DNA of 64,000 bases, taken from Nymphaea colorata. Taxonomy: Eukaryota > Streptophyta > Magnoliopsida > Nymphaeales > Nymphaeaceae. The stretch is taken from positions 19,523,002 to 19,587,001 of the forward strand of contig NC_045148.1 of the NCBI RefSeq assembly GCF_008831285.2, in the 5' to 3' direction. Numbering within the stretch: position 1 is the first letter of the stretch; each line of letters opens with the position of its first letter. This document shows positions 2,667 to 55,217 of this stretch, piece after piece. The notes under the pieces were generated by a model. It was not told the origin of the DNA. It was given only the letters and a program-made list of their open reading frames with translations, and did no database searches. Position numbers and translations under genes: made by a program.

Positions 2667-5600
2667 ATGGTGGAACGCAAGTTATACAAAACCAAGTTAT
2701 GCATCCTATTTCAAAGAGGCCGCTGTCCGCGCGAGAGCTGTACATTTGCCCATGGAGAAGCTGAACTTAGGAGGTTCTCTGGTGGTGGTGAGTTTCTGAT
2801 AAGAACCATCTGCAATACTATTTTGTGCTTGTCATTGTGCTGCTAGATTAACTAGTTTATAATAAACGATTTCCCTCTGAACAAAATTATGCCACTTTTA
2901 GAAGATAATAAAACTCGTTGTATTGTATGCTTTGATCAGTGGAAAATTGCAATAAATAAACAAGATTTTCTGTTATAGTTTGTCAACCTGTTATTGTCTT
3001 TTCAGTCCAGTATGATGCCCCCATAAAGGTAAATACCCTTTGCCTACTTTGTTGCCTGCTGATGTGCATGTCTCACAATTTTCAGAATGGCCATAATGAA
3101 TGCCTGATGTTGGACATAAGGAAGTTAGACAGAAAGAGGTAGATAATGATACTAGATGTCCTGCATTATAATTCTACATGTTGTTCAGGGTTAATTAATC
3201 ATTTGTTCTGATGTGCTGGAGCTGGATAGTCCGTTTAATTAGGTCTGTTTGAGCTTGTGCTCATGTGTATGTTCTTGCTCTAGCTGCTGACAATGCAACC
3301 AAATCAAGTTGGTGATTTTATAAATCCTAATAGTGTTTCAAGGTTTCCCCACATTTTTGTGTGAGATTATCTATTCCTATGATAATGCTCTAACCGCTGA
3401 GAATGCGACCAAATCAAGTTTGTGATTTTATAATTCCTAATAGTGTTTTAAGATTTTCCACATTCTTATGTGTGTTTCTCTATTCCTGCAACAATTGGTA
3501 GATGGCTTCCAACAATTGGAAGATGGATTCCAAAGAAAATGGGTAGAGTGTAAACGCCAGTATGAGACCACAATCTCAAACTAGGTCCTTATTCAAATCA
3601 CAATAGAGAAAGTAATAAAAATACGTAGAAGCCTTATTTGTGTCTTAGTCCTTATATTTGTTTCTAATGTATTCACCAATTGTGTAAGTGCATCTACTTG
3701 CCTAGCATAATTGCATAAATGCTTCTTTCTAGTTATGCTGATCTCTGTTCTATGCATTTATCAAAGGTCACTCCTGCAACATATTGTCACATGGGTTGAG
3801 TTCTGTTCTTAAGTTAGACATTGTACATCTCTACATCCAAAAGGTCTTTGCGCACCTGGCTAGGTGAACTAGCTTAAGCCTTAACAAGTCCAAGTTCAAT
3901 TAGATCTAATGTTGAGTACACTGGGTCTGCATTTTTTCACTTGAGTCAGTTTGACCAAAACAGGGTGATTTTCCTGGTGGGAAAGAGAAGGGTTCATGGG
4001 GATTTTGTAGTGATTAATATCTGGACGAGGGCATAAAAAAAAATGCTTCTCCTGGGTAGGCAAATCAAGATATGTCCAAAATTGAATAGCTTGCCTTGTC
4101 ATTAAGAAAATATTTGAATGCTTAATGTTCACTTTACTAGTCATAGATACTCTTTGGTATCGTTCTATCCTGAAACTGTGGTTGTTGGATTCTCTTTAGT
4201 GCACACAGGTCTTCTTGTCTTGGATGACGATTTGCATGTTTAAACAAATATCATTTTCTTAAATGCTTTTAGTGATGAGCTTGAAGAGGGCACCATGCTG
4301 TCCAGTGAATGAAATATACATGTGATTACAGGGGATATCAAATTATGAAGAGTTAGTGGTTTGTATCAAAATCTAATATTCTCTTTTCAACTGTTGTTGC
4401 TTGATACTGAAATTAGTTGGCTGTATTTACTTTCTGTGGAATGTTATTAACTATATTTCATCTGCTAATGGTTCTCTAAATCTGGTGACAATACAAGTTC
4501 TAGCTGCTGGTGATCACTGCAATGGCTTCTCTATATGGTTGGCTTTTCATTATATACCAATGTTTCTGACGTGTGATATTATCTATGTAATATTGAGGAG
4601 ATTGTATCCCAGCAAAAGCTCCATCTTATATATATCATGAATCGACTCCACAAGCTGGCAATATTGTCGATTATAGTGGAATTCTGCTCAACAATACATC
4701 TATATCTTGCTATAATGGCAGCTCCTTTGATATAGTTCATGACAGTGGGAGCTCATTTTGTAAATTCAACCTGTTTACAGAATCAGGCAGAGATCTGTAT
4801 GGTCCAGATTTTCTTGTTTTCGTTATTTCTCAAGAAGGAAGGCTTGCTACTCTTCGTCTATTATTTGCTCCTTTGTCAAAAGGGTTGTCTCAATCTTAAC
4901 ATGGCAACTTCTGTATGTTATTGAATTTTATAAGGACATTATATATGATCGTGTTGTATCCTATGTGGCAACGAGGAACATTACTGTCCTTATTTCTTTT
5001 CTCATAGTACTTACTGTAAGGGTAAGCTTTATGTAAGGCTAAGCTCAGTGCATGTCATGCTCTTTATGGTTTTCAAGCCATCCCTTAACACAAATTGGAA
5101 GTAACTCTTCAGTCAAATGTATATCATTGGTTACAGTTAAGAGGGATTTCCGAGGTAGTGACTTGAGGGAGAGACTTGACAGGCGACAATCACCTCGTGG
5201 AAGGTCTACCTTGAGACGATACCCTAGAGGAAGACATGCATTTCATGATCAGAGACATGATAGGGGTAATCCATGCCTCCTTATTACTGCTATATTTTAT
5301 TTTCTGTCCTATTCTGAGCCACAGGGAAGATGTTGGAATGCTAAATCATTGGTCATTTTTGTCTTCACTAAGAAAGCATCATAAACATGCCAATTTGTGG
5401 GGAGTGAGATACTATTCTCTAATATTTAGATGTCTTGACTGCTTGAGAATGATAGGAAGAATGGGAAAGGTTTGGGTAGAAAGATGTATAAAAAGCATTT
5501 TTAGATTCATATTTGAAATTCTGACATGCTTAATTTCACAAGATTTTAATATCCTAATTAACATGCAGGGTACAGTCCTTCTCGCTCGCCTGGAAACGAA

Positions 5601-21842: not shown

Positions 21843-22325
21843 CTTCTATTTTGTCATGCTTGTGCCTTCATCTATATACGCATACTCAAACCTGTACTTA
21901 TAAGTTATAACTATGGTCAGTGTTATTGGTGCATGATCCTTAGGAATCCTAGATACTATGTTATACCCGGTACGCATCAACCGACCTGTACCGGTCGTGT
22001 CGACAAAAGAAGGTTAAGAATAAAATTGGATTTCCTAATATCGACTGATAGAGGAACAGAGAGAATCGATCAGCGGGTACACTCGTATCAGCCGATATTT
22101 TAGAGGTGGTCATTTCATGTCCGGTTGAAGTTTGGAAGCGCGTGAAATTTGCCGTTTCGACCCCATCCGATCCCCGAAGCTGGTTATCCCCACCAGATTA
22201 GCTGCTGATCACGTTGTTCATCGGGCTGCGGTCAGATCTTGTCTTTAATATCACAAATCTGTGGGCTAATGTCAAATTATTACAAGGTTATTCACAGTCG
22301 TACTGGCATAGAAGGGTGCCGCAGC
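19790..22325. other. Intergenic, no gene recognised
   Basis: Contains poly-A and poly-T runs near 21385-21500 and a (TA)n tract at 21817-21842. I see no domain-bearing open frame, RNA gene or clearly bounded transposon on either strand. Confidence 0.5.
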
Positions 22326-22327
22326 TA

Positions 22328-22336
22328 TTATATAAG
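22328..22336 (+). promoter_or_regulatory. Candidate TATA box of the DUF26 gene
   Basis: TTATATAAG lies about 32-40 bp before ATG 22368. If used, the leader would be only about 10 nt, which is short, so a different promoter may operate. The frame is open far upstream of this ATG, but only through non-ATG codons. Confidence 0.3.
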
Positions 22337-22367
22337 TGCCGCCCAAGGAAAAGAAGGCAAAGATTCG

Positions 22368-23208
22368 ATGGCGATCATGGTGCTGAAGCTCGTAATCTTG
22401 CTTCTTCTTTTCTCGTGCGCTGCTGCGCAATTCACCAACCGTTATCTCAATAGCCGCTGCTCCAACACCTCCAATTACACCACCGGAAGCATGTTTGAGA
22501 ATAACATGAAGGTCGTCCTGGCCAGCTTGACGACGGACGCCCCTCCCTCTGGCTTCTCCAACAACACCACCGGCGAAAGGCCCAACCAAGTCTACGGCCT
22601 CGCTCAGTGCAGAGGCGACATCACCGGCGAAGGTTGCACGGAATGCATTTATAACGCAACCATCGACGTCGTCAAGGAGTGCCCCCATTCATCTGATGCC
22701 ATCATATGGTACGAGCACTGCCAGCTGCGGTACTCGAGCGCAAACTTCTTTGGTGTACTCAACATGAAGGATCTTGCTGCCTGGTGTTACAAGCAGGAAG
22801 CAAAGAACCCTCTCATCTTCAGCCAGAAGCTGAAAGTTCTGCTAAACTCTCTGGGTTCTGAGGCAGCCATGAATGCTTCATTTTTTGCTACGGGGAGCAT
22901 GGTGTATGAACAACCGGAGACGATATATGGTTTGACTCAGTGCACAAGGGACACTTCCGTAGTTGATTGTAAAAGCTGTTTAACGGCTACGATTGAAGCG
23001 ATGCTGAAATATTTCGGCACCAATGTGGGCGCTGAGGTGGCTTCAGGGAGTTGCCGCGTTAGGTTCGGTTTGACTTCGTTCCTTGACACCGCACCATCTG
23101 GAAGTCCGCCACCACCTCCATCTCCACCTCCACCTCCGCCATCGCACTCATCTCCACCTCCACCTTCATCATCACATCCACCACCGCGACCTCCAAATAC
23201 AGGTCAGT

Positions 23209-23246
<38 letters not shown>

Positions 23247-23377
23247 TATGTAGCTAAATGCAAGTATTTCTGAATGCAGACAAGGCGAACCACTCAAGCG
23301 CAACATCTGCGGCTATGATCACTGTCATCACTCTTGCCTGGATGTCTACATATTGGCTGCTCATGGTGACATCATAG
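22368..23377 (+). CDS. Cysteine-rich repeat secretory protein, two DUF26 domains, hydrophobic C-terminal tail
   Basis: Exons 22368-23202 and 23280-23377 join in phase 1 to give 310 aa. A signal peptide (about residues 1-21, hydrophobic VLKLVILLLLFSCAAA) precedes two DUF26 (Gnk2-like) domains with C-x8-C-x2-C motifs CRGDITGEGCTEC and CTRDTSVVDCKSC. A Pro/Ser-rich linker (PPPPPSPPPPPPSHSS) follows. The 98-bp second exon encodes NHSSATSAA followed by a hydrophobic stretch (MITVITLAWMSTYWLLMV) that ends the protein, typical of a GPI-anchor signal or a short membrane anchor. There is no kinase. DUF26 proteins of this type act outside the cell or at the plasma membrane or plasmodesmata; the ligand is unknown, although Gnk2 relatives bind mannose. 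The 77-nt intron carries a (CT)n tract. It is paralogous to the gene at 53953. Confidence 0.85.
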
Positions 23378-27460: not shown

Positions 27461-27810
27461 CCGCATGTAATTTTTTTCAAAGAAAAAATCACGCACCCGT
27501 CTGCATATATACGCCTCTACGCGTTTATGCATTCGGCCGACATCAACAATTTAAAATTTTTGACTACTTTTGATTTGCTTTTTCGTAATTTCTCTGCGAT
27601 GCGGAGATAAGATAATGGAGCATATGGGCCGACTCCGCCTCATCTCGACTTCGGCGTCCAGCTTCCACCGTTCCAATGACAATAAATTTTTCAAGTGGTG
27701 TAGCTGTCTGCAGACCATAAACTGCGAATTGCTCAGCCTTTAATTCCTCCCGTTCCTTCACCGCCCGGTACGCTGCTCTTAGCCAAGAAAGAAACTCGTG
27801 ACCTGCTCTC

Positions 27811-34589
<6,779 letters not shown>

Positions 34590-37960: not shown

Positions 37961-38091
37961 CTAAGACTGCAGATTCGTTGAACTGTTGAGGCTACCGAGG
38001 TTCGGGTTTTGACAAAATTAAAAACAAATTGCTCCTGGCCTCTTCCTTCTCTACCTGCATTCCTTCGGCCGGCCACGCAACAGATGGTCCC

Positions 38092-42258
<4,167 letters not shown>

Positions 42259-43370
42259 AGTGCTTCCCCACATCTACGCCTATTACTCATTCGAACCTTT
42301 TTATTTCAAATTTGTTGTTTCTAGCAGAGCAAGAGATAACTTGACGAGTGTATTTGTTTGACGTTGTATTTTTTTCCTTAAATTGGTTATAACGTACCAC
42401 ATAATAATGATAAACAGTATTTTCCAGTAGCTAATTGGTACGTCTTTTAAACCTTTGAATCTGCTGATACTAGAGGATGTAGAATCCTTCGTTACAGAGA
42501 TGGTGACTGAGAAGCGGCCGTGGTATAGGTGTTTATCATCATGCAGCGTCAATGACAACGTGTATTCAACACAGAAATTATGACTAAATCTGCGACTAAT
42601 ATCAAGCGTCATATTACTTGCTTCAAAGTTCCCTTGGGAGCTGCTTGGCAATAGGAACTGCTTGTCACTGTTCCATGAATCCTATCATAAGAATTGGGAC
42701 ACGTTCATAGAACATTGTGCAGATTCATGTTGCCATATCACGCTTGAGAAATAGAAAAGCACTAAGAAATCATCTGCCTGATCTGCCGGCCAACCGAACC
42801 ATATAGGAGTGAATGAGAACTCTGCAGGTAATTTGTAGGACAGCTGTAGGAGCTGAAAAAGTTCTGCCCCTTGAAAGGCCACTGAAGTGCTGCTCAATCA
42901 AGTGCCACGTACATGATAGTCAGGTGTTCAGCACGATCGAAAGTGTCATCTGTGAACCCACAACAGATTGAAGTAAAAATTGATTGTGGCATGTATTGGC
43001 GTACTGATCAACAAATTTAATTCTACGTCACTAAAATACTCCAAGCTTTTCTAAATAATCTACAAAGGCATATATGCTATATTAACAAAAGACTCTGTAT
43101 TCCTCTCAACCGTCTCCTCAGAGTTTCGAGTTAAAAAGAATTTGTGAACCACTAGAGTTGAAAAGAGCGATTCATGGAGTGGAAGGGAATGAGTTGGGGG
43201 CTGAACCCACTCAGATAAGGGCATGCCAAGTGCCACTGACGTACCTGATTTTAGGTTAGCTTTTTTCTTCCTTTGAAATTTGCCTTGACTGCACATTCAA
43301 TCAAGCAAGTTTTGTGATTACCAAGCTTTGTGATTACCAAGGATCGGCTTTGACAAAATAAAAAAACATT
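42259..43370. other. Spacer between CRK-B and the CRK pseudogene
   Basis: No gene recognised. The last part (from about 43340, TTTGACAAAATAAA onward) is similar to the CRK-B promoter and leader, so the duplication unit includes promoter sequence. Confidence 0.45.
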
Positions 43371-43371
43371 T

Positions 43372-43873
43372 TGCTTTCGGCCTCTTGCTTCTCTACCTGC
43401 ATTCTCTAGCCAAGCAACAGATCGTCCCGGCGAGATGGGGACTCTGTTTTGTGATACTTCTTGTTGCAGCTTCAGCTTGCCTTTTTGCAAGACTACCAAT
43501 CCTTTCTACACGCTGTGCTGTGCCCAACGACTTCCAATTACACTGCCAACAGCACCTTCCAACGAAGTCTGAGCACTCTTTTCCTCTCCCTCTCCAGCAA
43601 CGCCTTCATAAACGGCTTTTAGCACCGCCACGGGGGCCGAAAGCTCTGTTCAAGGCTATGGTCTAATCCTCTGCCGCAGCGAGGTCTCCATTGCCGACTG
43701 CGCAAACTGCATCTCCGATGCAACCACCCAGATCGTCCAGGCGATGCCTCAGCGGCAAATCATCAACCATATGGTTGGACAACTGCTTGTTGCTATTTTC
43801 CGATCAAAGCTTTTTCGGAACCGGGACATTGGGTTTAGGTTGTACACATATGTGGAACTCGACGAATCCCACG
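43372..43873 (+). pseudogene. CRK pseudogene, DUF26 ectodomain 5' part, split by a hAT element
   Basis: Closely follows CRK-B from the leader (GCTTCTCTACCTGCATTC) through the signal peptide and first DUF26 domain to AATCCCACG. The equivalent of the start codon is lost: CCCATGGCGAG in CRK-B is CCCGGCGAG here. Frameshifts occur near 43484 and 43520. An in-frame TAG lies in GGCTTTTAGCACC, and extra bases lie at GGGGGCCG and CCAGGCGATG. The copy is cut at 43873 by the transposon; about 45 bp of the continuation (CACGCTCTTCAATTCACAGC) reappears at 51938-51980. No kinase exons follow. It was probably already dead or decayed after insertion; order is unknown. Confidence 0.88.
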
Positions 43874-43879
43874 TAGGGA

Positions 43880-44305
43880 GGTAAACGGATCGGATTCGGA
43901 TCAGATATACTCTTTATTATATTCGACTTTTCGGATATACATATTTTCGGATTCGAATTCGGATGAAATAAAATCTAAAAAATATCCGAATCCGATCCGA
44001 ATCCGACTTTTAAATCAAAATCTGGTTCCGAATCCGAATCCGACTTTAAAAATCCGAAATCCGATTAAAATCCGAATCCGACTTTTTATTTCAATATCCG
44101 ATTTCAATCCGAATCCGATTTTTTATTTCATTATCCGATTTCAATCCGAATCCGATTTTTTATTTCATTATCTGATTTCAATCTGAATCCGACTTTTTAT
44201 TTCATTATCTGATTTCAATTCGAATCCGACTTTTTATTTCATTATCCGATTTCAATCCGAATCCGACTTTTTATTTCATTATCCGATTTCAATCCGAATC
44301 CAAAT
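43880..44305. repeat. Left subterminal repeat array of the hAT element
   Basis: Dozens of overlapping ATCCGAATCCGA/TCGGATTCGGAT words. Between about 44070 and 44300 they settle into roughly six tandem copies of a 37-bp unit built from TTTCAATCCGAATCCGA plus TTTTTATTTCATTATCCGA. hAT transposases bind subterminal motifs (AAACGG in Ac), so these are candidate transposase sites. Confidence 0.85.
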
Positions 44306-45082
44306 TTTATATTTAAAGATCCCATTCTGATGTAAAGACTTTCAAATTTGACATCCAAAACTAACTTTTAAATTGCTAAAAAAATTCATTCCACCACTTC
44401 TTTCTCACAGCTCAAGTAAGGGCCCACAAGGTAATATCTAAAACATTATCACTACAATAGCTGCACATTCTACCTACCTAGCAAAATATCATGTATTTTT
44501 TTACCAAGTGCCTCCATGGATGTTAATTACCAATGTTCTTTTAAAAACAAAAAAGAAAACAAAAAAATGCCTAAAGCATAAAGCATAAAGGGCGACGAGC
44601 CAGACTGCCTAATAAGTTTCCATTAAATATTTAGGCATCTGCAAAAAACTATACAGTCTGAAGCTTTCAATATATACACTTGAACTGTTATAACATACAA
44701 ATGAAAGTAATTGGTGAGAAAGACACAAAAACCTTAATTCTCAAAACAAAACTATGATATGAATACAAATTTCAAAAAATTGTACTTTGTTGTTTGTTGA
44801 TGCAACAAGAGACTAGACCTTCACATCTTCAATAATAAAAAAAAAATCATCATATAGTTCAAGCTTACAAAATTTTTCTTTCAATGCCTTCATTTGTGAC
44901 AAAGGATATGACTTTTCTGTTTGGATATATTAAGGTCCTGAGGATAATGATATCAAATTAACCTGCATTATGCAAATGAAAACTTTAATTAAATAAACAT
45001 CTTAGACTCACTTGACACATAACTCTAGGTTTTAATTGATTTAATGAAAACAGATAAATATAAAAGAATATATATCTCTAAT

Positions 45083-47187
45083 TTACGATTCAGTTTCAAT
45101 GTATGCAGATGCAAATGGTGCTTCCTCTTCAGGTAAAGGTGTAGGCAAATCGAAATCATCTAACAAAAGAATAAAATAAGCAACACAAAAATATGTTTAA
45201 AAACATTAATAATAAGTAAATTACCTTCAGCCTTATCTCGCAACCAAGCTTGTGCACAAATCAAAGCCTCCACGGTCTTGCAACCTAATCTACTTCTGTA
45301 TAAATCAAGAATACGTCCACCTGTACTAAATGTTGACTCTGATGCAACAGTTGATATAGGAAGAGCCAAAATATCACATACCATTCTAGATAACACAGGG
45401 TATTTAGGTGCATTGACTTTCCACAAAGTCAAAATGTCAATTGGATTGTTTTTTGGGTAAATGAGCTCTTCCAAATACAATTCCAAATCTGATTTTCTAT
45501 GTTGGCTTTGTGATGATTCTTTAAGAAAGTCATCTAATGCACTTGTTCTAGGCTTCTTATTGAAAGAAACCTCAATCAAAGAAGTCGAAGTAGATGCTTC
45601 ATTATCCTTCTCAACATCAACAATGTAACCAGTACCAGCAGAGAATGTCTTGAATGCATAAGTAGCTTTATATTCATCATAAAGATCACAAAGATAATTC
45701 TTAATTGCAGAAACAAGTACATATGCTTCATCTTTATAAAATTGCCTATAGTAAAACTCAATTATTTTCATCTTATAATGAGGATCAAATACCACTGCAA
45801 CTGCTAAAATTAAATTGCATATATCCTAATACTTGTCAAACTTTGTTTTCATCCTCATTGCCATATTTGAAAGGCAAATATCTGAACTTGAACACATTTT
45901 TTCAATTTCTAACTTTATCTCACAAAACTCTTTAAAGAAGATATTGGAAGTTGGACACTTGACTGCAGAAATGACATTAGTAGCATCATAAAATACCTTC
46001 AAACTGTTATGGATAATAGTAGCCTTCTTCCACTCGTCCTTTGTCGGTCTGAAATGATAGTGACGATCAAGTTCTTCAAAACGACCAAAAGCTTTTTTAT
46101 ATTGTAAAGCTACATCAAGCATAAGAAATGTTGAGTTCCATCTAGTTGAAACATCAAGGCACAACTTTTTTTCACAAGTAACTTTGACATGACGCACTGC
46201 TCGATCAAAAATTTCACAGCGAGCTGGAGATGCCTTAATATATTTTATGTTTTCTTTGATCTTGTCAATCACATCATTTATTTCTTTGATACCATCTTGC
46301 ACAACCAAATTAAGAATATGAGCAGCACATCTAAGTTGAAAAAATTTTCCATTACAGACAAGTGCATCCTTTTCAAGAAGTCACTCTATCAATTTTGTAA
46401 CCATGATATCATTTGTCGAACAATTATCTAATGTAATTGAAAATAACTCGCGATCAATATTCCATTTTAGTAAACAATCTTTGATGACTGATGCAAGTCT
46501 TTCTCTTGTATGAGGTGTTTCAACCATAACAAAATTGAGAACTTTCTTTTTTATTTCCCAACTATTATCAATATAATGTGCAGTCAAACATAAATAACCA
46601 CATTTTTGACAAGACGAAGTCCACATGTCAGATGTAAGACTAATCCTCCCATTAGTCTTCTCCAAAATAGTACGTAATTTTGTCATTTCATCTTCATAAA
46701 TATGTATGCAATCTGATCTAATAGTGTTACGTGACAATAACTTAAACTGTGGTTGTAATCCTTTAACAAATTTCTGAAATCCAGAATGACCAACTATACA
46801 AAATGGATATTCATGAAGAATAATCATATTGGCTAAATCCTGTCGATTTTTATCTGAATCAAACTTGAAAGTACCAACAGTACATTTTTCATTCTTTTCA
46901 CAAAAAACCAGACGTTGTTGACATGATTCTAAGTTAGGCCTTTTAGGATATAATTTTAAATTATTCTTCAAACGTGAGGTGCCCATCTTACTATTGCAAT
47001 CCATAGATACTTTACAGTGTTGACAAATAGCACGTTGAATACCTGATTCATTTATTGTCCTGCTGAACTCTTTCCATACCGCTGATCTTAGTGACTTGGT
47101 TTTCGTAGATATGTCAACTTCTATATTGTTAGCAGAGACGGAACTAGAAGCATTGGCACCTGATGTTGTAGAATCCATAATCTGCAT
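45083..47187 (-). pseudogene. hAT transposase (BED finger, RICESLEEPER/Ac type), disrupted
   Basis: Coding parts 47187-45225 and, after an intron with donor AAG|gtaatt, 45159-45083. N-terminus: BED-like region with CQHC but the expected histidines and final cysteine are replaced (TSRLKNNLKLYP). Middle: ISLTSDMWTS, DNCSTND and LRCAAHILNLVVQDG, the hAT catalytic-core landmarks. C-terminus: hAT dimerisation domain with YPVLSRMVCDILALPISTVA, SESTFSTGGRI and LICAQAWLRD. Two in-frame stops break it: TGA following the codons for TKLIE (near 46379) and TAG following KFDKY (near 45826, where relatives usually have Trp). It is therefore not expected to produce active transposase. Confidence 0.88.
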
Positions 47188-47574
47188 ATAAAAAATAGAA
47201 AACTTTAACTAAACCATTCGAAAGCAAAAAAATGGGAAGAAAAAGGAGAAGGAGGCACAAAACCATACCAAAAGTACTAGAGAAATGCAAATGCCAAAAC
47301 AACTATTTGAAACTACAAAACCATACCAACAAGTGCAGCCAACCAAAAGCAGGCACATGCATAAAAATAGAAAGTGACATGTCATATTTTGCATATTTCA
47401 TAAACAACAAGTTTTCCTTTCATAAACCCTCGGTCATATAAGTCAGTATTTAAGTTGGAAACTGAAGATGCCGCATAAGTGACTCCTGCTATGGCAGATA
47501 GGAGAAAATGTGGAACTATGGAAACTGCATATATGATTGCACTTTACTTCTAACAATAAAGCATCATTTAGCTC

Positions 47575-47655
47575 CTTGGGAATTGGGAAGTAAGTTCCAT
47601 CCATTGGGATCCCACGTCATCATCCACGACCTTGCTGAGACCAAAATCAGTCACT
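47575..47655 (-). pseudogene. TOUSLED-like kinase fragment (DFG region) inside the hAT element
   Basis: On the minus strand the frame reads KVTDFGLSKVV, DDDVGSQWMELTSQ, matching the activation segment of plant TOUSLED kinases (KVTDFGLSKI..VGSQGMELTSQ as I know it). It stops shortly after. It is a captured or inserted exon piece, not a gene. Confidence 0.7.
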
Positions 47656-47890
47656 TTTCAATTAGCTCCATCTCGCCTTTCACTAGTTTTCACTGCAAGC
47701 AAGTGTGGAATTATCAAGGCATAAATGAAACGCGTCCCTATGAACACTACCTATGTGGTAAATACACGTGGTCCAAAGTCTCCGTGTGTAAGAATCCATC
47801 ACCACTCCACCACTCCACCACTCCACCACGCTCTGTTCAACAGATTAATAAAAAGAAAAGAAGAGAGAAAGAGAGAGAGAGGAGAAGGAC

Positions 47891-47998
47891 CGTGGGTTGG
47901 AGAGAGGCTGAAGCAGCTTTGGCATGTGATACGCCACCATCCCCATGGGTTGGAGAGAGGCTGAAGCAGCTTTGGCATGTGATACGCCACCATCCCCG
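47891..47998. repeat. Tandem duplication, two copies of 53 bp
   Basis: GGGTTGGAGAGAGGCTGAAG and the following AGCTTTGGCATGTGATACGC, then CACCATCCCC, occur twice head to tail with one base difference at the end. It lies between the two TOUSLED-like fragments. Confidence 0.95.
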
Positions 47999-48267
47999 TG
48001 GGTTTCTGCGTCGCCATTTCTTTCTTCCTCCCTCTGTTTCTCTTTTCCCCTTTCAGATGAAAGTGTGAATGGAAGGAAGCACGCCAGCACCAATGGTCCC
48101 CTTCTCCTCTCTCTCTTTTCTGCTGCTCCAACTCAGAGGCCCTCACTGTCGTGTATTATTAACTTTATATCTATCATCGGTCACTAAACTATTTTGAAAA
48201 GGATTGTGTATAAATTCATTTGAGACGATATAATGCAGGCTCATAACTCATAAGCAAGTTTGCATCC

Positions 48268-48452
48268 ATTGGGATCTAAGTTCCATCCATTGGGATCCCA
48301 CATCGTTGTTGGCAGTAGAGCAGAAAATTTGAGTTATGAGCACATCATTGGGATCCCACATCATCATCCTCATCAAAAAGAACATTTCCAGGGTTCAAAT
48401 CATAGTGAATAATCTTTTGTTGGCAGTAAAGCAGAAAATTGACTGCAGAACG
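48268..48452 (-). pseudogene. TOUSLED-like kinase fragments (catalytic loop), rearranged
   Basis: On the minus strand, 48452-48349 reads KIIHYDLNPGNVLFDE followed by DDDVGSQ. The catalytic-loop motif IIHYDLKPGNVLFDE is characteristic of TOUSLED kinases; here Lys is replaced by Asn in the HxDLK position. A partial extra copy of VGSQWMEL lies at 48310-48268. GGCAGTARAGCAGAAAATT occurs twice (48310, 48422). Fragment order on the minus strand (loop, then DFG at 47655) matches the source gene, but joins are scrambled. Confidence 0.65.
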
Positions 48453-48839
48453 AATGACCAAAAAAGGCAGATTATGCGATGAAGATATTTTAGGGAAAAA
48501 AGGGTATCAGAGGATCACAAAGAAATTGAGGTGGAGAGGAGAGATGTAATCGGTGGGGAAAATGAAAATCATTATACTGAACGTGCGTCTTTCAAGAAAA
48601 TGAAATCATATATTCATGAAAAGGAACAAAACCTGGAAATGTTCTTTTTGATAGAGAGAGTGGGAACCAAATCTGATACATTATTTTTTATTAATCGTAT
48701 ATATGGTTTTTTTATGAGCTAAGAAAAGCAAATGCAGGACAAGAAGACCTACGAAACAGAGATAAGGCTTTCATATTTCTAGCATGACAGTAATCTCAAC
48801 TTCTCAACGTTGTTGACAAGATAATAAACATGTTACTTC

Positions 48840-48995
48840 ATCATCAGTGCCAGCGAGTGGTAGAACATCACCAGCCATGGAGTTCCAAGCAACCACATCC
48901 CTCTGCGGCATCTTCTCAGACACTTGGTATGCACTGTCCAAGCATCCACATTTGCTATACATATCAATCAGTGCAGTTACAACAAATACGTTGTT
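48840..48995 (-). pseudogene. Pentatricopeptide repeat (PPR) protein fragment inside the hAT element
   Basis: The minus-strand frame reads [38 protein letters not shown], the classic plant PLS-type PPR consensus ([10 protein letters not shown], AxxVFxxMPxRDVVxWNSMI). About 45 residues are recognisable; flanks are not PPR. It is a captured fragment. Confidence 0.75.
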
Positions 48996-49197
48996 CATTT
49001 GTAATCAAATAAAACCAAAGTGCATCATCTTCCGACTTCAAACAAACATCTCGACTAGAAGAAAGAATGCCACAAGCAAACAAATCAAAACCAGAGGCAA
49101 GAAAAAGCTTTAGGGGAGAGCAGCATTACCTTAGTGAGTTGGCGATGATAAGGGCGAGCACTTTCAGGACGAAAAGGTCGAGTCTCCTCCCTTTTGG

Positions 49198-49338
49198 TAC
49201 TGCACCGATTACACTGTGGACAACAACTTCGACCACAACCTGCGCCGCCCGTTCGCCTCCCTGCCCCTGAAAGCCAATGTTTCCCTCACCAGCTTCTACA
49301 ATGCCACCGAGGGAAGGAAAGCCGACCAAGTCACCTGA
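49198..49338 (+). pseudogene. DUF26 domain fragment inside the hAT element
   Basis: The frame reads YCTDYTVDNNFDHNLRRPFA, SLPLKANVSLTSFYNATEGR, KADQVT then stop. This matches the N-terminal half of a DUF26 domain (C..YT.NS.F..NL...L..LP..A....FYNAT.G..PDQV). It is more diverged from CRK-A and CRK-B than they are from each other, and GC-richer than the surrounding AT-rich element, so it likely came from another DUF26 gene. Confidence 0.7.
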
Positions 49339-50039
49339 CTCACCTCAAAATTTTTTTGTTTTGATCCTGAACGCAGCGTGAGAGAGCGAGAGGGAGAAGA
49401 AAAGAGGGGAAGAATGGCAAGGGTTATTCTTCGAAACTTTGGTGCAGGGAGGAACGGTGCAGGGAAGGAAGAACGTCAAGCAATTCTTTTCTTTTTTTTG
49501 TTTCCATTTTTGTTTTTCCTTTGAGCCGTAGGAAAGAAGAAACGACACCCACCAATCATCTTCAATAACGTTCATTTAACAACCAATAAAAACGATTGCT
49601 TTTACAAGCAAACAAAATGGGCCGGAAGCTTCATTTTCATTTTAAATTTGATCAACTTAAATTGAACTTCAAGGAAAAACTATGGTTTTTTAATTTCGTC
49701 CAACCTATAGATAGTTGAAAATTGTAATATAAGTAATTTAAAAAACTATGGTTTTTTAATTTCGTCCAACCTAAACAAAGTTGAAAACTTCAGAACATAT
49801 ACTATATAAGTAATTTAATAATATGACATTCTAACTGGACTCGGGTGTAAGTCGGAGCCGCACCCATGTTCGGTGCGCACCCGACTTGATGCGACGCGGG
49901 TGCGACATCAAAATAAAAGAGTTCGGGTGACTCACTGCTAAAAAAAAATTTTAAAATTATTTTTTGGCTTCATTTTAAATTTTAAAACTATAGTTTGACT
50001 TTGGCAAGGAAACAACTTCTAAGCATATAGTATATAAAA

Positions 50040-51305
50040 AAGCTATTATTTGATATATCAGATAATTTATTAAATCGAACAATTTGTTATTTTGCTACTA
50101 GTTAAAGTTTTTGTTTTCGAATTTGTAAATTATGTATTATATATCAAACACCTACGACTTTTGGATAAGAATTTATTTGATAAATAATTTTTTTATGAGT
50201 ATAGCAGATTTTTTATATTAAATATATTTATTTGCGATTATGCAAGTGGAGAAGCTTTCAACTAAAATGAATATCATAATGCGTTTAAGATTTTCTATCA
50301 ACTTCTATTATTTTACGAGTTTAGCAGTTTATTTGCTATCAACTTTTTTTTCATAAGTGACATACATGCCAATAGTTTTTCTTGAGACCTTTACTTTCTT
50401 AAATATATAATATAGCTATACTTGAAACCAATTTGACATAATAGTCTATTAAAATTTATAGCTTTAAAAAATGTCTTTTTCATATTTTAAAAATTCTCAT
50501 TTTTTGAATTTTTTGATTGAAGTTTTTTTTATTATTTTTAATTAAATAAATATATTATTTAAGATTTCCTGCTAAAATACACGATGAAGAACCTTTCCTG
50601 CTTTCGTTATCAAAATTGTGAACATTGAACATTAATTGGTTTATTTGTAACGAATTATTTCAAATAACAATGTCCGATCGGATAATACTTGTTAAGATTT
50701 CCTGCTTTGGTGTAACGAATAACATATTTTAAATTGACTAAACTATTATTTCATGATGATCAGTTGATCACTTATTGTCAATTATTAAATCGTGACACCC
50801 ATATTATTTATCATTAAAAAATATTATTTAACTTCTCTTTTTTCTCATTTTATTGAGTTAATTAAAATAATTTGTGTTACACCCGTAAAAAGAGTGTTTA
50901 ATAATATAAAATAATTTATTAATCCTCTTAACTTTATTACTATAATTATTCTTTACATAAAATTTTATAATTACTCCAATGATATGTAAGATAGTTTATT
51001 AAATCGAACAATGTGTTGTTTTCTTAATAGTTAAAGGCTTTTGTTTTTAAATTTGTGAATTATGTGTTATATATGAAATATCTAAGACTTTTGGACATAT
51101 TATATGATTATACAAAATGATTTACTTGATTAATTGAATAAATAATTTTTAATTTCATAAATTAAAACTTTTTTATGTGTTCAAGACTATTTGTGATTAA
51201 TTTTCATATTTTTTAAACTACTAATTTTATTGAAATTTCCTTATAAAAGTTTTTTTTATTATTATTATTAATTAAATAAATACATTATTTAAGATATCCT
51301 ATTTA
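50040..51305. repeat. Internal imperfect direct repeats in the right part of the hAT element
   Basis: TTTATTAAATCGAACAATTTG near 50068 recurs as TTTATTAAATCGAACAATGTG near 50996, each followed by about 90 bp of similar sequence (TAGTTAAAG, TTTGT..ATTATGT, ACTTTTGGA). A further pair is TTAATTAAATAAATATATTA near 50539 and TTAATTAAATAAATACATTA near 51269. Spacing is about 730-930 bp, suggesting an old segmental duplication in the element. Confidence 0.6.
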
Positions 51306-51589
51306 GTTGATGCCTTAACTATAATAGTTTGCTTGTTTACAGAAAAACGTTTAATTAAATATAATATTAATTATTATTTTATTAGTTTTATATGATATAG
51401 TTTTAAATAGTTTAAGTTAAATTTCATAAATAGTTTATATCATTATATGCAACTTCACAAAAACAATCAGCTATTAATCAGATTATATCTTCATATAAAG
51501 TTTATAATATATATACATCATAACTTTAAGTTGGTGCGCTTGGTTAAACCTTTTGGCTAACCATTCACAGGTCTCTACTTCAAAACGTG

Positions 51590-51915
51590 GGGTCACCAAC
51601 TCAATCTTAGATTCGGATTCAGATATCATCGGATTCGGATGTTGGAGTCACCAACTCAATCTTAGATTCGGATGCCAGCACTTCACTTGCGGATTCGGAT
51701 ATATCACGGTTCGGATTCGGATATACTTGTTAAGATGGTTAAGTGTCCGATCGGATATTTACTTAAAACCGAATCCGAATCCATATCCGATCGGATAAGA
51801 TGGTTCAATATCCTTAAAACCGAATCCGTATCCGATCGGATGTTACTTCTTAAATCCGAATCCGATCCGATTTCTCAATCGGATGTCAAATTACTAACCA
51901 TATCCGATTTTTTAC
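51590..51915. repeat. Right subterminal repeat array of the hAT element
   Basis: TTCGGATTC, CCGAATCCGAATCC and CCGATCGGAT words are repeated densely up to the right end. GTCACCAACTCAATCTTAGA followed by TTCGGAT occurs twice, 56 bp apart (about 51591 and 51647). They mirror the left array and support a single element spanning 43874-51934. Confidence 0.8.
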
Positions 51916-51934
51916 AAGCGATTTGACATCCCTA

Positions 51935-51980
51935 GATTCCCACGCTCTTCAATTCACAGCTCCTGAACAGCGTCACTTAT
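51935..51980 (+). pseudogene. Continuation of the CRK pseudogene right of the hAT element
   Basis: GATTCCCACGCTCTTCAATT and the next bases CACAGCTCC match CRK-B exon 1 at 38526-38555 (CCCACGCTCTTCAATTCGCA). Similarity fades after about 45 bp, so the rest of this copy is lost or deleted. Confidence 0.75.
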
Positions 51981-53952: not shown

Positions 53953-55132
53953 CTACGACGGCATCATTAGCAGCCAATATGTCGACACCAAGGCAAGAGT
54001 GATGACGGTGATCATAGACACAGATGTTGCGCTTGAGTAGCTCAGTTTGTCTGCATGGAGAAATTCTTGCAGTTAGCTAGAGAAAGAGAGAGAGAGAGAG
54101 AGAAGGCTTTAACCAAACAACAAGTAATAAAAAAGAAAGGTAAATGCAGCAAAAGAGAAAAATAACAAAAGAAACCACGAGCAAGAAACATGCACAAACA
54201 AAAAACTGAAGCAAAAACAAGAGGAAGAGGGACTAGCCTGACGTAGTGTTAAATGACCCATTTGATGAAGGACTTGGAGGTTCCGGAGGGGGTGAGTCGA
54301 ATGGAGGAGATGGGCTTGGGCTTGAATTTGATGGGGATGGCGAATTGGACGGAGGAGACAGGCTTACAGTTGGGGTGCCAGCATAAAAGAGCTGGGTATC
54401 ATACCTCACACGGCAACTTCCAGTGACAATTTCACAGCCGTGTGCATTCTTGCAAGTAGTTTGGATTAGGGAGGTGGTGTTATCCAAGCACAGCTTGCAA
54501 TCGGCAAGGCTGGTGTCCCAGGTGCACTGCACTAGCACGTATATCGTCTGTAGATCGCTATAAGGGATGTATCCCGTCACAAACATGAGCCTTGAAAGGT
54601 CTATTGTTGCTAGATAGGTGAGATTCTTCAGCAGACTCCCCAATTTCTCGTTGAAGACTTTAGGGTCAATCACTTTGTCAGCAACCCAATACCAAAAACC
54701 AGAATCCTCAACATTGAGGCGAGCAAAGAATTTGGTGTTGGAGTAGCGGAGCTGGCAATTTTCATACCATATGATGGCATCGACTGCGCTGGGACAGTAT
54801 GTGTCGACGACTGCTTGAGTGGAATTGTGGATGCAAGCCTTGCAGTCTTCCTGATCAATGTCGCCCCTGCACTGAACCAGGCCATACACTCTGTCCAATC
54901 CTTGGCCCCAGGTGGCAAAGCCAAAACCAATGGGAGGAGCAAGGTTTGTCAAGGTGAAGAAGACCCTGCGCATGTTCGCTTCAAACTTGCTTCCTGCCGT
55001 GTAATTCACAGCGGCGTTGCAGCGGCTGTTGATGTAGTCATTGCTGCTTATTGCACGGTCGACAAGGAAGAACAGGAGGAGGAGGGTGAAGCCAACCTTC
55101 AACAACCTTTGCCCCATGACAGAGTAAACCAT
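53953..55132 (-). CDS. Cysteine-rich repeat secretory protein, two DUF26 domains, hydrophobic tail (GC-AG intron)
   Basis: Exon 1 is 55132-54238 and exon 2 is 54050-53953, giving 330 aa (325 from the inner ATG at 55117, which better fits a signal peptide: MGQRLLKVGFTLLLLFFLVD). DUF26 motifs CRGDIDQEDCKAC and CTWDTSLADCKLC, a Ser/Pro linker (SPSPSNSSPSPSPP), and a 98-bp exon encoding SYSSATSVS then a hydrophobic end (MITVITLALVSTYWLLMM). That exon is about 84% identical in DNA to exon 2 of the gene at 22368. In the same position where that gene has CAG|gtcagt, this one has CAG|gctagt, so the intron would be GC-AG. If unspliced, translation stops at TAG 54233-54235 and the protein loses its tail. 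No kinase. Probably extracellular or membrane-anchored. Confidence 0.82.
54082..54103. repeat. (GA)n microsatellite in the DUF26 gene intron
   Basis: On the coding strand this is a (CT)n tract shortly before the 3' splice site, matching the (CT)n in the intron of the paralogue at 22368. Confidence 0.9.
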
Positions 55133-55217
55133 ATCTATTTCCGCCTGTTAGGGACAGTGGGAAGAAGTCTTCGCTAGATGGAGGGGAGCTTTGGTTATGT
55201 CTGTGTATCCAAGGATG

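Follow-up and report, generated by a model that had tools for sequence, protein, structure and literature searches.

We analysed a 64-kb stretch of the Nymphaea colorata genome (C11:19523002–19587001, hereafter the window; the assembly comprises 407.8 Mb in 783 contigs, which are denoted by C-numbers). At window positions 43874–51934 lies a hAT transposon, assigned to the minus strand from the orientation of its transposase and delimited by its ends, its empty site and its sister copies elsewhere in the genome. The element carries fragments of three host genes, which encode a TOUSLED-like kinase (TLK), a PPR protein and a DUF26 protein. In the following, E-numbers denote oriented sister copies of the element and L-numbers the genomic stretches that were compared.

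The left end with its subterminal array, composed chiefly of 37-bp tandem units, occupies positions 43874–44340, and the right subterminal repeats and end occupy positions 51560–51934. As originally predicted, the two arrays match, CGGAT-type arrays being present at both ends; within the window, GGATTCGGAT occurs four times and ATCCGAATCC ten times, and every occurrence falls inside the element. The terminal inverted repeats (TIRs) are of the TAGGGATGTCAACG type, C/TAGGG kind, with 12–14 of 14 bases in seven sister copies. The window copy begins with TAGGGAGGTAAACG on the left and, read inward, with TAGGGATGTCAAAT on the right, and 10 of these 14 bases agree; approximately 30 bp next to the right terminus are missing compared with E13 and E15. 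The element appears Ac-like, a designation based on the look of its ends. The AT-rich right arm (49384–51560) is common to a wider family, and at five sites it was found in close opposite-orientation pairs (C5:5003199/5004338, C9:6578522/6579666, C6:25585317/25586573, C10:17104557/17105512 and C1:773381/774583), as if palindromic, foldback-like relatives existed. One relative, L039 (C7:16.5 Mb), proved to be merely a truncated right arm; it lacks a segment corresponding to window positions 49886–49966. This segment opens with a GC-rich run that stands out from the neighbouring sequence, and it is possibly another small insert.

The window copy is flanked by GAATCCCACG (43864–43873) and GATTCCCACG (51935–51944), with nine of ten bases in agreement, and a scan allowing up to one mismatch detected no in-register 8-bp flanking repeat. 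Thus, the predicted 10-bp repeats are present, but they do not form a clean hAT duplication; the 8-bp target site duplication typical of hAT elements is found in sister copies and not in the window copy. The insertion site lies within a DUF26 pseudogene on the plus strand, the left part of which (43334–43873) matches positions 37993–38511 at 82.7%, and the 25-bp right remnant (51938–51962) matches positions 38529–38553 at 96%. Removal in silico of the element and one 10-bp copy rejoined the DUF26 frame, which then resembled the intact paralogue at 37990–38949. Because the frame shifts to the left of the insertion site and the match to the paralogue stops within approximately 30 bp to its right, the host gene had probably decayed to a pseudogene before the element inserted. 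DUF26-like sequence was also observed in four more open frames of the window (22209–23270, 27802–28686, 37990–38949 and, minus, 54236–55147).

The hAT transposase frame lies at 45160–47208 (minus) and contains stops at codons 276 and 461. It matched PF14372 (2.9e-29) and PF05699 (2.8e-26) in Pfam and Hermes chains in PDB, with both the RNase-H-like domain and the hAT C-terminal dimerisation region present. Transposase sequence is kept in the window copy, E09, E11, E14/15, E16, E18, E20 and E26, and none was detected in E17 and E24 by DNA comparison. The whole 682-codon frame was open in none of the eight copies examined, E09 having 654 open codons followed by a stop; with two stops in its frame, the window copy lacks the intact transposase gene of an autonomous element. 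The window element belongs to a transposase-bearing hAT family, and the window copy is now decayed.

Between the transposase and the right arm lies a block of foreign sequence, the GC content of which (0.34–0.49 in 400-bp windows) differs, as had been noted, from that of the arms (0.16–0.36). From left to right, the block starts with TLK piece 1 (47269–47658, minus), an exon with adjoining non-coding sequence that aligns at 76% to L028:4125–4590. This is followed by a spacer inserted in the TLK tract (47659–48267), related to C4:15443769–15444351 (L027), and by TLK piece 2 (48268–48420, minus), which holds the 76-bp duplicated part for the second time, together with the rest of the tract, and has lost its middle, so that 48268–48304 and 48368–48420 align. 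Next come the right part of host piece A (48421–48669), which matches C2:28907876–28908189 (L021) and is interrupted by a private patch, the PPR fragment (48872–48991, minus) and the DUF26 fragment (PF01657; 49144–49329, plus). Alignment to donor genes confirmed the prediction of TLK and PPR fragments on the minus strand and a DUF26 fragment on the plus strand at 47.5–49.4 kb. The count of three host genes was correct as far as it went, but incomplete, as at least two further foreign pieces (47659–48267 and 48421–48669) match places without a recognised gene; Pfam searches of six frames of 4.8 kb each at L021 and L027 gave nothing at E 0.01.

Since the Pfam E-values for the window itself fell short of the curated cut-offs (Pkinase 0.014, PPR_2 0.0064 and Stress-antifung 0.041), the identity of the fragments is drawn from their alignment to donor genes, namely 76, 89 and 92% by piece to the TLK locus, 95% to the PPR gene and, over 78% of the piece, 81% to a DUF26 gene. 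Among the best 150 of 1095 candidates scored, the TLK donor was C1:20029227–20031652 (minus; L028), with an 86–92% match exon by exon. As single stretches, C402 and C458 outscored this locus, yet at 54% identity; these two contigs and C464 (62%) lie outside the large ones, and their TLK-like matches perhaps come from another organism. The TLK pieces of the compared copies lie in order, with internal gaps, within L028:3796–4653 (858 bp including non-coding sequence; C1:20030795–20031652), E14 and E16 carrying 3796–4590 and E09 and E15 carrying 4515–4653, and no single copy holds the entire stretch. Because non-coding sequence adjoining the exon is included, TLK was captured as DNA, and capture of cDNA was ruled out.

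The PPR donor, C2:14449661–14452246 (minus), is an unbroken frame of 862 codons, and the PPR tract lies inside it. The hAT-borne PPR tracts fall within 883 bp of this donor and measure 189 and 479 bp in E24, 551 bp plus smaller pieces in E22, 305 bp in E13, E17 and E19, and 120 bp in the window copy. For DUF26, the best genes outside the hAT copies are at C11:19822938, with a frame of 527 codons and 87% protein identity, and at C11:19833364, with 497 codons and 85%. These likely donors are located approximately 260 kb away; like the window, they belong to a DUF26-rich region of C11. A donor within the window was ruled out, as the best matches there reached just 33% across 42 residues and 40% across 20. 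The search for source genes called for by the original prediction thus led to TLK at C1:20.03 Mb, PPR at C2:14.45 Mb and the DUF26 array of C11.

Sister copies were identified using positions 47450–49400 as the query, which gave at least 70 matches (best 40 of 41 candidates scored). The 20 stretches compared represent 18 places, 15 of which are oriented as copies and three of which are donor-like (L021, L027 and L028). E14 and E15, which lie approximately 23.4 kb apart with TTTGTACC on both outer flanks, form the two halves of a single copy and were merged, giving 14 sister copies, or 15 copies with that of the window. The 23.4-kb insertion that splits this copy (C14:2879036–2902490; L014, L015) is placed at the equivalent of window position 48096; its ends resemble imperfect inverted repeats, and its flanks overlap by approximately 3 bp.

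The search revealed copies both with and without the whole block. E09 (C4:7558350–7566491, 8142 bp, duplication GTGTTAGC) and E11 (C4:12069933–12077918, 7986 bp, duplication GATGCAAG) contain all of it, and the others contain subsets. These two copies are 99.1% identical over 7.8 kb with unrelated flanks; the same block at independent insertion sites indicates that the block travels with the element. A perfect 8-bp target duplication was present in seven of the 14 sister copies, that is, in E09, E11 and E14/15 as well as in E17 (CCACCAAC), E18 (GTTGCAAT), E19 (TTAGCAAT) and E24 (ATGATGGG). Three detection methods were used, the first being the strictest (E09, E11, E17, E18 and E19) and the later two looser. 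No such duplication was found for E13, E16, E20, E22, E23, E25 and E26; for E13, E16 and E20, one end was not found in the stretch compared.

Among the 15 copies, TLK is carried by the window copy, E09, E11, E14/15, E16, E18, E19 and E20; PPR by the window copy, E09, E11, E13, E17, E19, E22, E23 and E24; and DUF26 by the window copy, E09, E11, E13, E16, E17, E18, E19, E25 and E26. E18 lacks the region corresponding to 47594–49006. Substitutions relative to the donor amount to 6.7–10.9% for DUF26 (with rough ends), 5.8–9.6% for TLK, and, for PPR, 2.5–3.3% over 305 bp and 5.0–5.8% over the 120 bp that the window copy and E09 retain. E25 and E26 diverge from the window copy alike in the arms (9.8–12.2%) and in the DUF26 piece (about 12%); because they hold this piece with such similar divergence, DUF26 is taken as the oldest of the three captures.

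Three further features concern the order and mode of assembly. First, L021 (C2:28.9 Mb) matches both flanks of the TLK tract, and 87 bp of L021 are missing at the position that TLK occupies; L021 either donated piece A or is a relic of the pre-TLK state. A genome search with L021 gave 14 matches: the query locus, 12 places in family copies already known and a 94-bp match at C1:20836147. Second, in E09 and E14/15 the spacer lies between TLK sequence ending at 4590 and TLK sequence restarting at 4515, with a 76-bp TLK duplication on its two sides, and E19 and E20 are without the spacer. Third, in the window copy only, a 24-bp inverted copy of positions 48372–48395 (48629–48652, plus) takes the place of approximately 80 bp that all five aligned sister copies possess. 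This patch reproduces the TLK piece 233 bp away at 23 of 24 bases, compared with 18 for the best of 40 shuffles and 16 for the same region of E09.

The PPR tract is also present in a second subfamily, the arms of which differ more. We compared three pairs, for which the p values are uncorrected. Between E24 (C15:435812–439421) and E19, 12 of 301 sites differ in the PPR tract and 53 of 342 in the arm (50050–50660; Fisher p 7e-7); between E24 and the window copy, the counts are 5 of 120 versus 57 of 521 (p 0.025), and between E13 and E19, 2 of 312 versus 40 of 1267 (p 0.01). The PPR tract thus seems more recent than the divergence of its carrier arms, which suggests, on sequence comparison, that it may have been transferred between hAT elements of the two subfamilies. 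This reading is qualified by segment i, which adjoins PPR and is 94% identical in E22 and 85% in E24, and unequal mutation rates of coding DNA and AT-rich arms could be part of the cause of the contrast. Independent capture of PPR by both subfamilies is disfavoured: E22 and E24 share both outer PPR breakpoints, and the hAT tracts with data (five to six by column) deviate identically from the gene at three columns, which could instead reflect changes in the donor gene. Furthermore, the joint of PPR to i found in the lineage of the window copy resembles what deletion within an E22-like tract would leave. L022 (C13:11.06 Mb) and L023 (C4:4.95 Mb), with a PPR-bearing hAT-like left end, are 99.4% alike over 8.4 kb; a match of this length indicates a larger, recently copied repeat, so that E22 and E23 are not two clean hAT insertions.

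With the shared ends, the TLK, PPR and DUF26 donor genes, the intermediate states and the movement of the block with its element all observed in the genome, the hAT family very probably gathered pieces of unlinked host genes stepwise and then moved them as ordinary hAT cargo. The DUF26 piece would have been acquired first. Later acquisitions, the mutual order of which is less sure, would have been the 620-bp piece A without a recognised gene, TLK inside A, the spacer inside the TLK tract, and the PPR tract common to another hAT subfamily. The pieces may each have been taken up as DNA during repair of a break in the element, the copying having jumped to another locus and then back; such template-switching repair is suggested because the apparent pre-TLK state, the 76-bp duplication around the spacer and the 24-bp inverted patch are its expected marks. 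Most simply, the break would be the gap left by the element's own excision. The loaded element would then have spread by ordinary hAT transposition, the window copy landing in the DUF26 pseudogene and decaying there.

Several observations weigh against this account. The repeat flanking the window copy is an imperfect one of 10 bp. The sole other place of the spacer, L027, is 74–85% identical by piece, as a related locus and probably not the direct donor, and it weakly matches the subterminal arrays of the family (44 bits). L021 weakly matches the left end once (39 bits) and could be a family relic and not the donor of piece A. E19 and E20, which represent the spacer-free state, have themselves lost parts of TLK and A. 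In addition, hAT insertions that have since been lost could at one time have adjoined the donor loci.

Repair of breaks other than excision gaps may also have produced the captures, a possibility that we regard as the less probable one. The copy in which the window-private patch arose has damaged ends and was maybe already immobile, which would fit such breaks; however, the data do not separate them from excision-gap repair, and the spread of loaded copies shows just that the capturing lineages could still move. The Pack-TYPE route, in which two hAT copies on either side of a host stretch undergo aberrant excision to yield a hybrid element enclosing that stretch, is described in passages of PMC8903248 and PMC13317346. 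It is known for Pack-CACTA, and the present family has many copies, but we consider it unlikely here. The donors are scattered on C1, C2, C4 and C11; no TIR-like end was detected in the stretches around the TLK, PPR, DUF26, L021 and L027 places (9.0, 4.0, 2.0, 9.9 and 9.0 kb, respectively); and at the TLK, PPR and DUF26 donors there was no family match besides the captured part. Moreover, the frame of the PPR donor is unbroken, and the positions of TLK inside A and of the spacer inside TLK require internal events.

That all fragments arrived together, whether in a nested transposon, as raised in the original prediction, or through one filler event, is very improbable, even though the GC content and texture of the block are unlike those of the arms. 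Different copies contain different combinations of the pieces, on which ground a nested-transposon origin was rejected: DUF26 is present without TLK or PPR in E25 and E26, PPR without DUF26 in E22–E24, and TLK without PPR in E16. Divergence from the donor also varies by piece, duplications made by transposons are far shorter than 76 bp, and a repeat scan of the element (Helitron ends being outside its scope) found no inner terminal-repeat pair or long inverted pair around the block. There is almost no likelihood that positions 43874 and 51934 are ends of two distinct elements, despite the agreement of their terminal 14 bases at just 10 positions, as the empty site is intact and the same pair of ends is shared by sister copies, including E09, E11, E17, E18 and E19 with their perfect 8-bp duplications; the single element originally proposed for this interval is borne out.

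The Ds2 and Ds-l4 classes of maize are Ds elements without a working transposase. Passages of PMC3260210 describe gene capture by Ds elements as rare for hATs, in agreement with the earlier remark that it is less common for this superfamily, and there Ds2 and Ds-l4 likewise show hAT ends, 8-bp duplications and intron-bearing gene pieces from other chromosomes. Each case described in those passages holds a piece of one gene, whereas the present family bears transposase, pieces of at least three genes and intermediate states. In grapevine, Hatvine-6 is likewise a hAT family whose members have transposase and TIRs in common but vary in a region that contains genic and non-genic host DNA; unlike our analysis, the passages of PMC2528002 give neither an order of acquisition nor exchange between subfamilies. 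Maize Pack-hAT elements, according to passages of PMC8903248, similarly enclose coding DNA within hAT TIRs and show target duplications. That work restricts the Pack-TYPE class to non-autonomous elements, and its pipeline classes any transposase match as autonomous; the window copy contains host coding DNA between its TIRs (from the TLK, PPR and DUF26 donors), but also a transposase match, and would be excluded. Animal Pack-TIRs with gap filling are reported in PMC8277862. A survey of TIR elements with template-switch inserts likewise involves template switching, with hAT as the commonest class there (208 of 370); nearly all of those elements are single-copy (four multicopy), in contrast to the multi-copy family with serial captures described here. 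The relevant passages of a 2026 review (PMC13317346) leave room for the possibility that DNA transposons acquire unlinked genes by a route not yet discovered. Literature searches on capture, gap repair and Nymphaea listed no publication on the present hAT family.

The TLK and PPR pieces share the orientation of the transposase and lie upstream of its frame, and we conjecture that they may serve as its leader or promoter. Tentatively, and with less than even confidence, fragments traded between subfamilies and repeated template switching in gap repair might together make the transposase-bearing family a serial assembler of unlinked gene pieces, some of which may act as such a leader or promoter.

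Gene capture by plant hATs is already in print; the present family is unusually readable, in that the steps can be traced in related copies. An apparent pre-capture state, intermediates, donors and breakpoints occur in one genome, which makes the template-switch model testable junction by junction. The family also shows gene fragments in transposase-bearing elements, which would be missed as capture by a pipeline that files transposase matches as autonomous.

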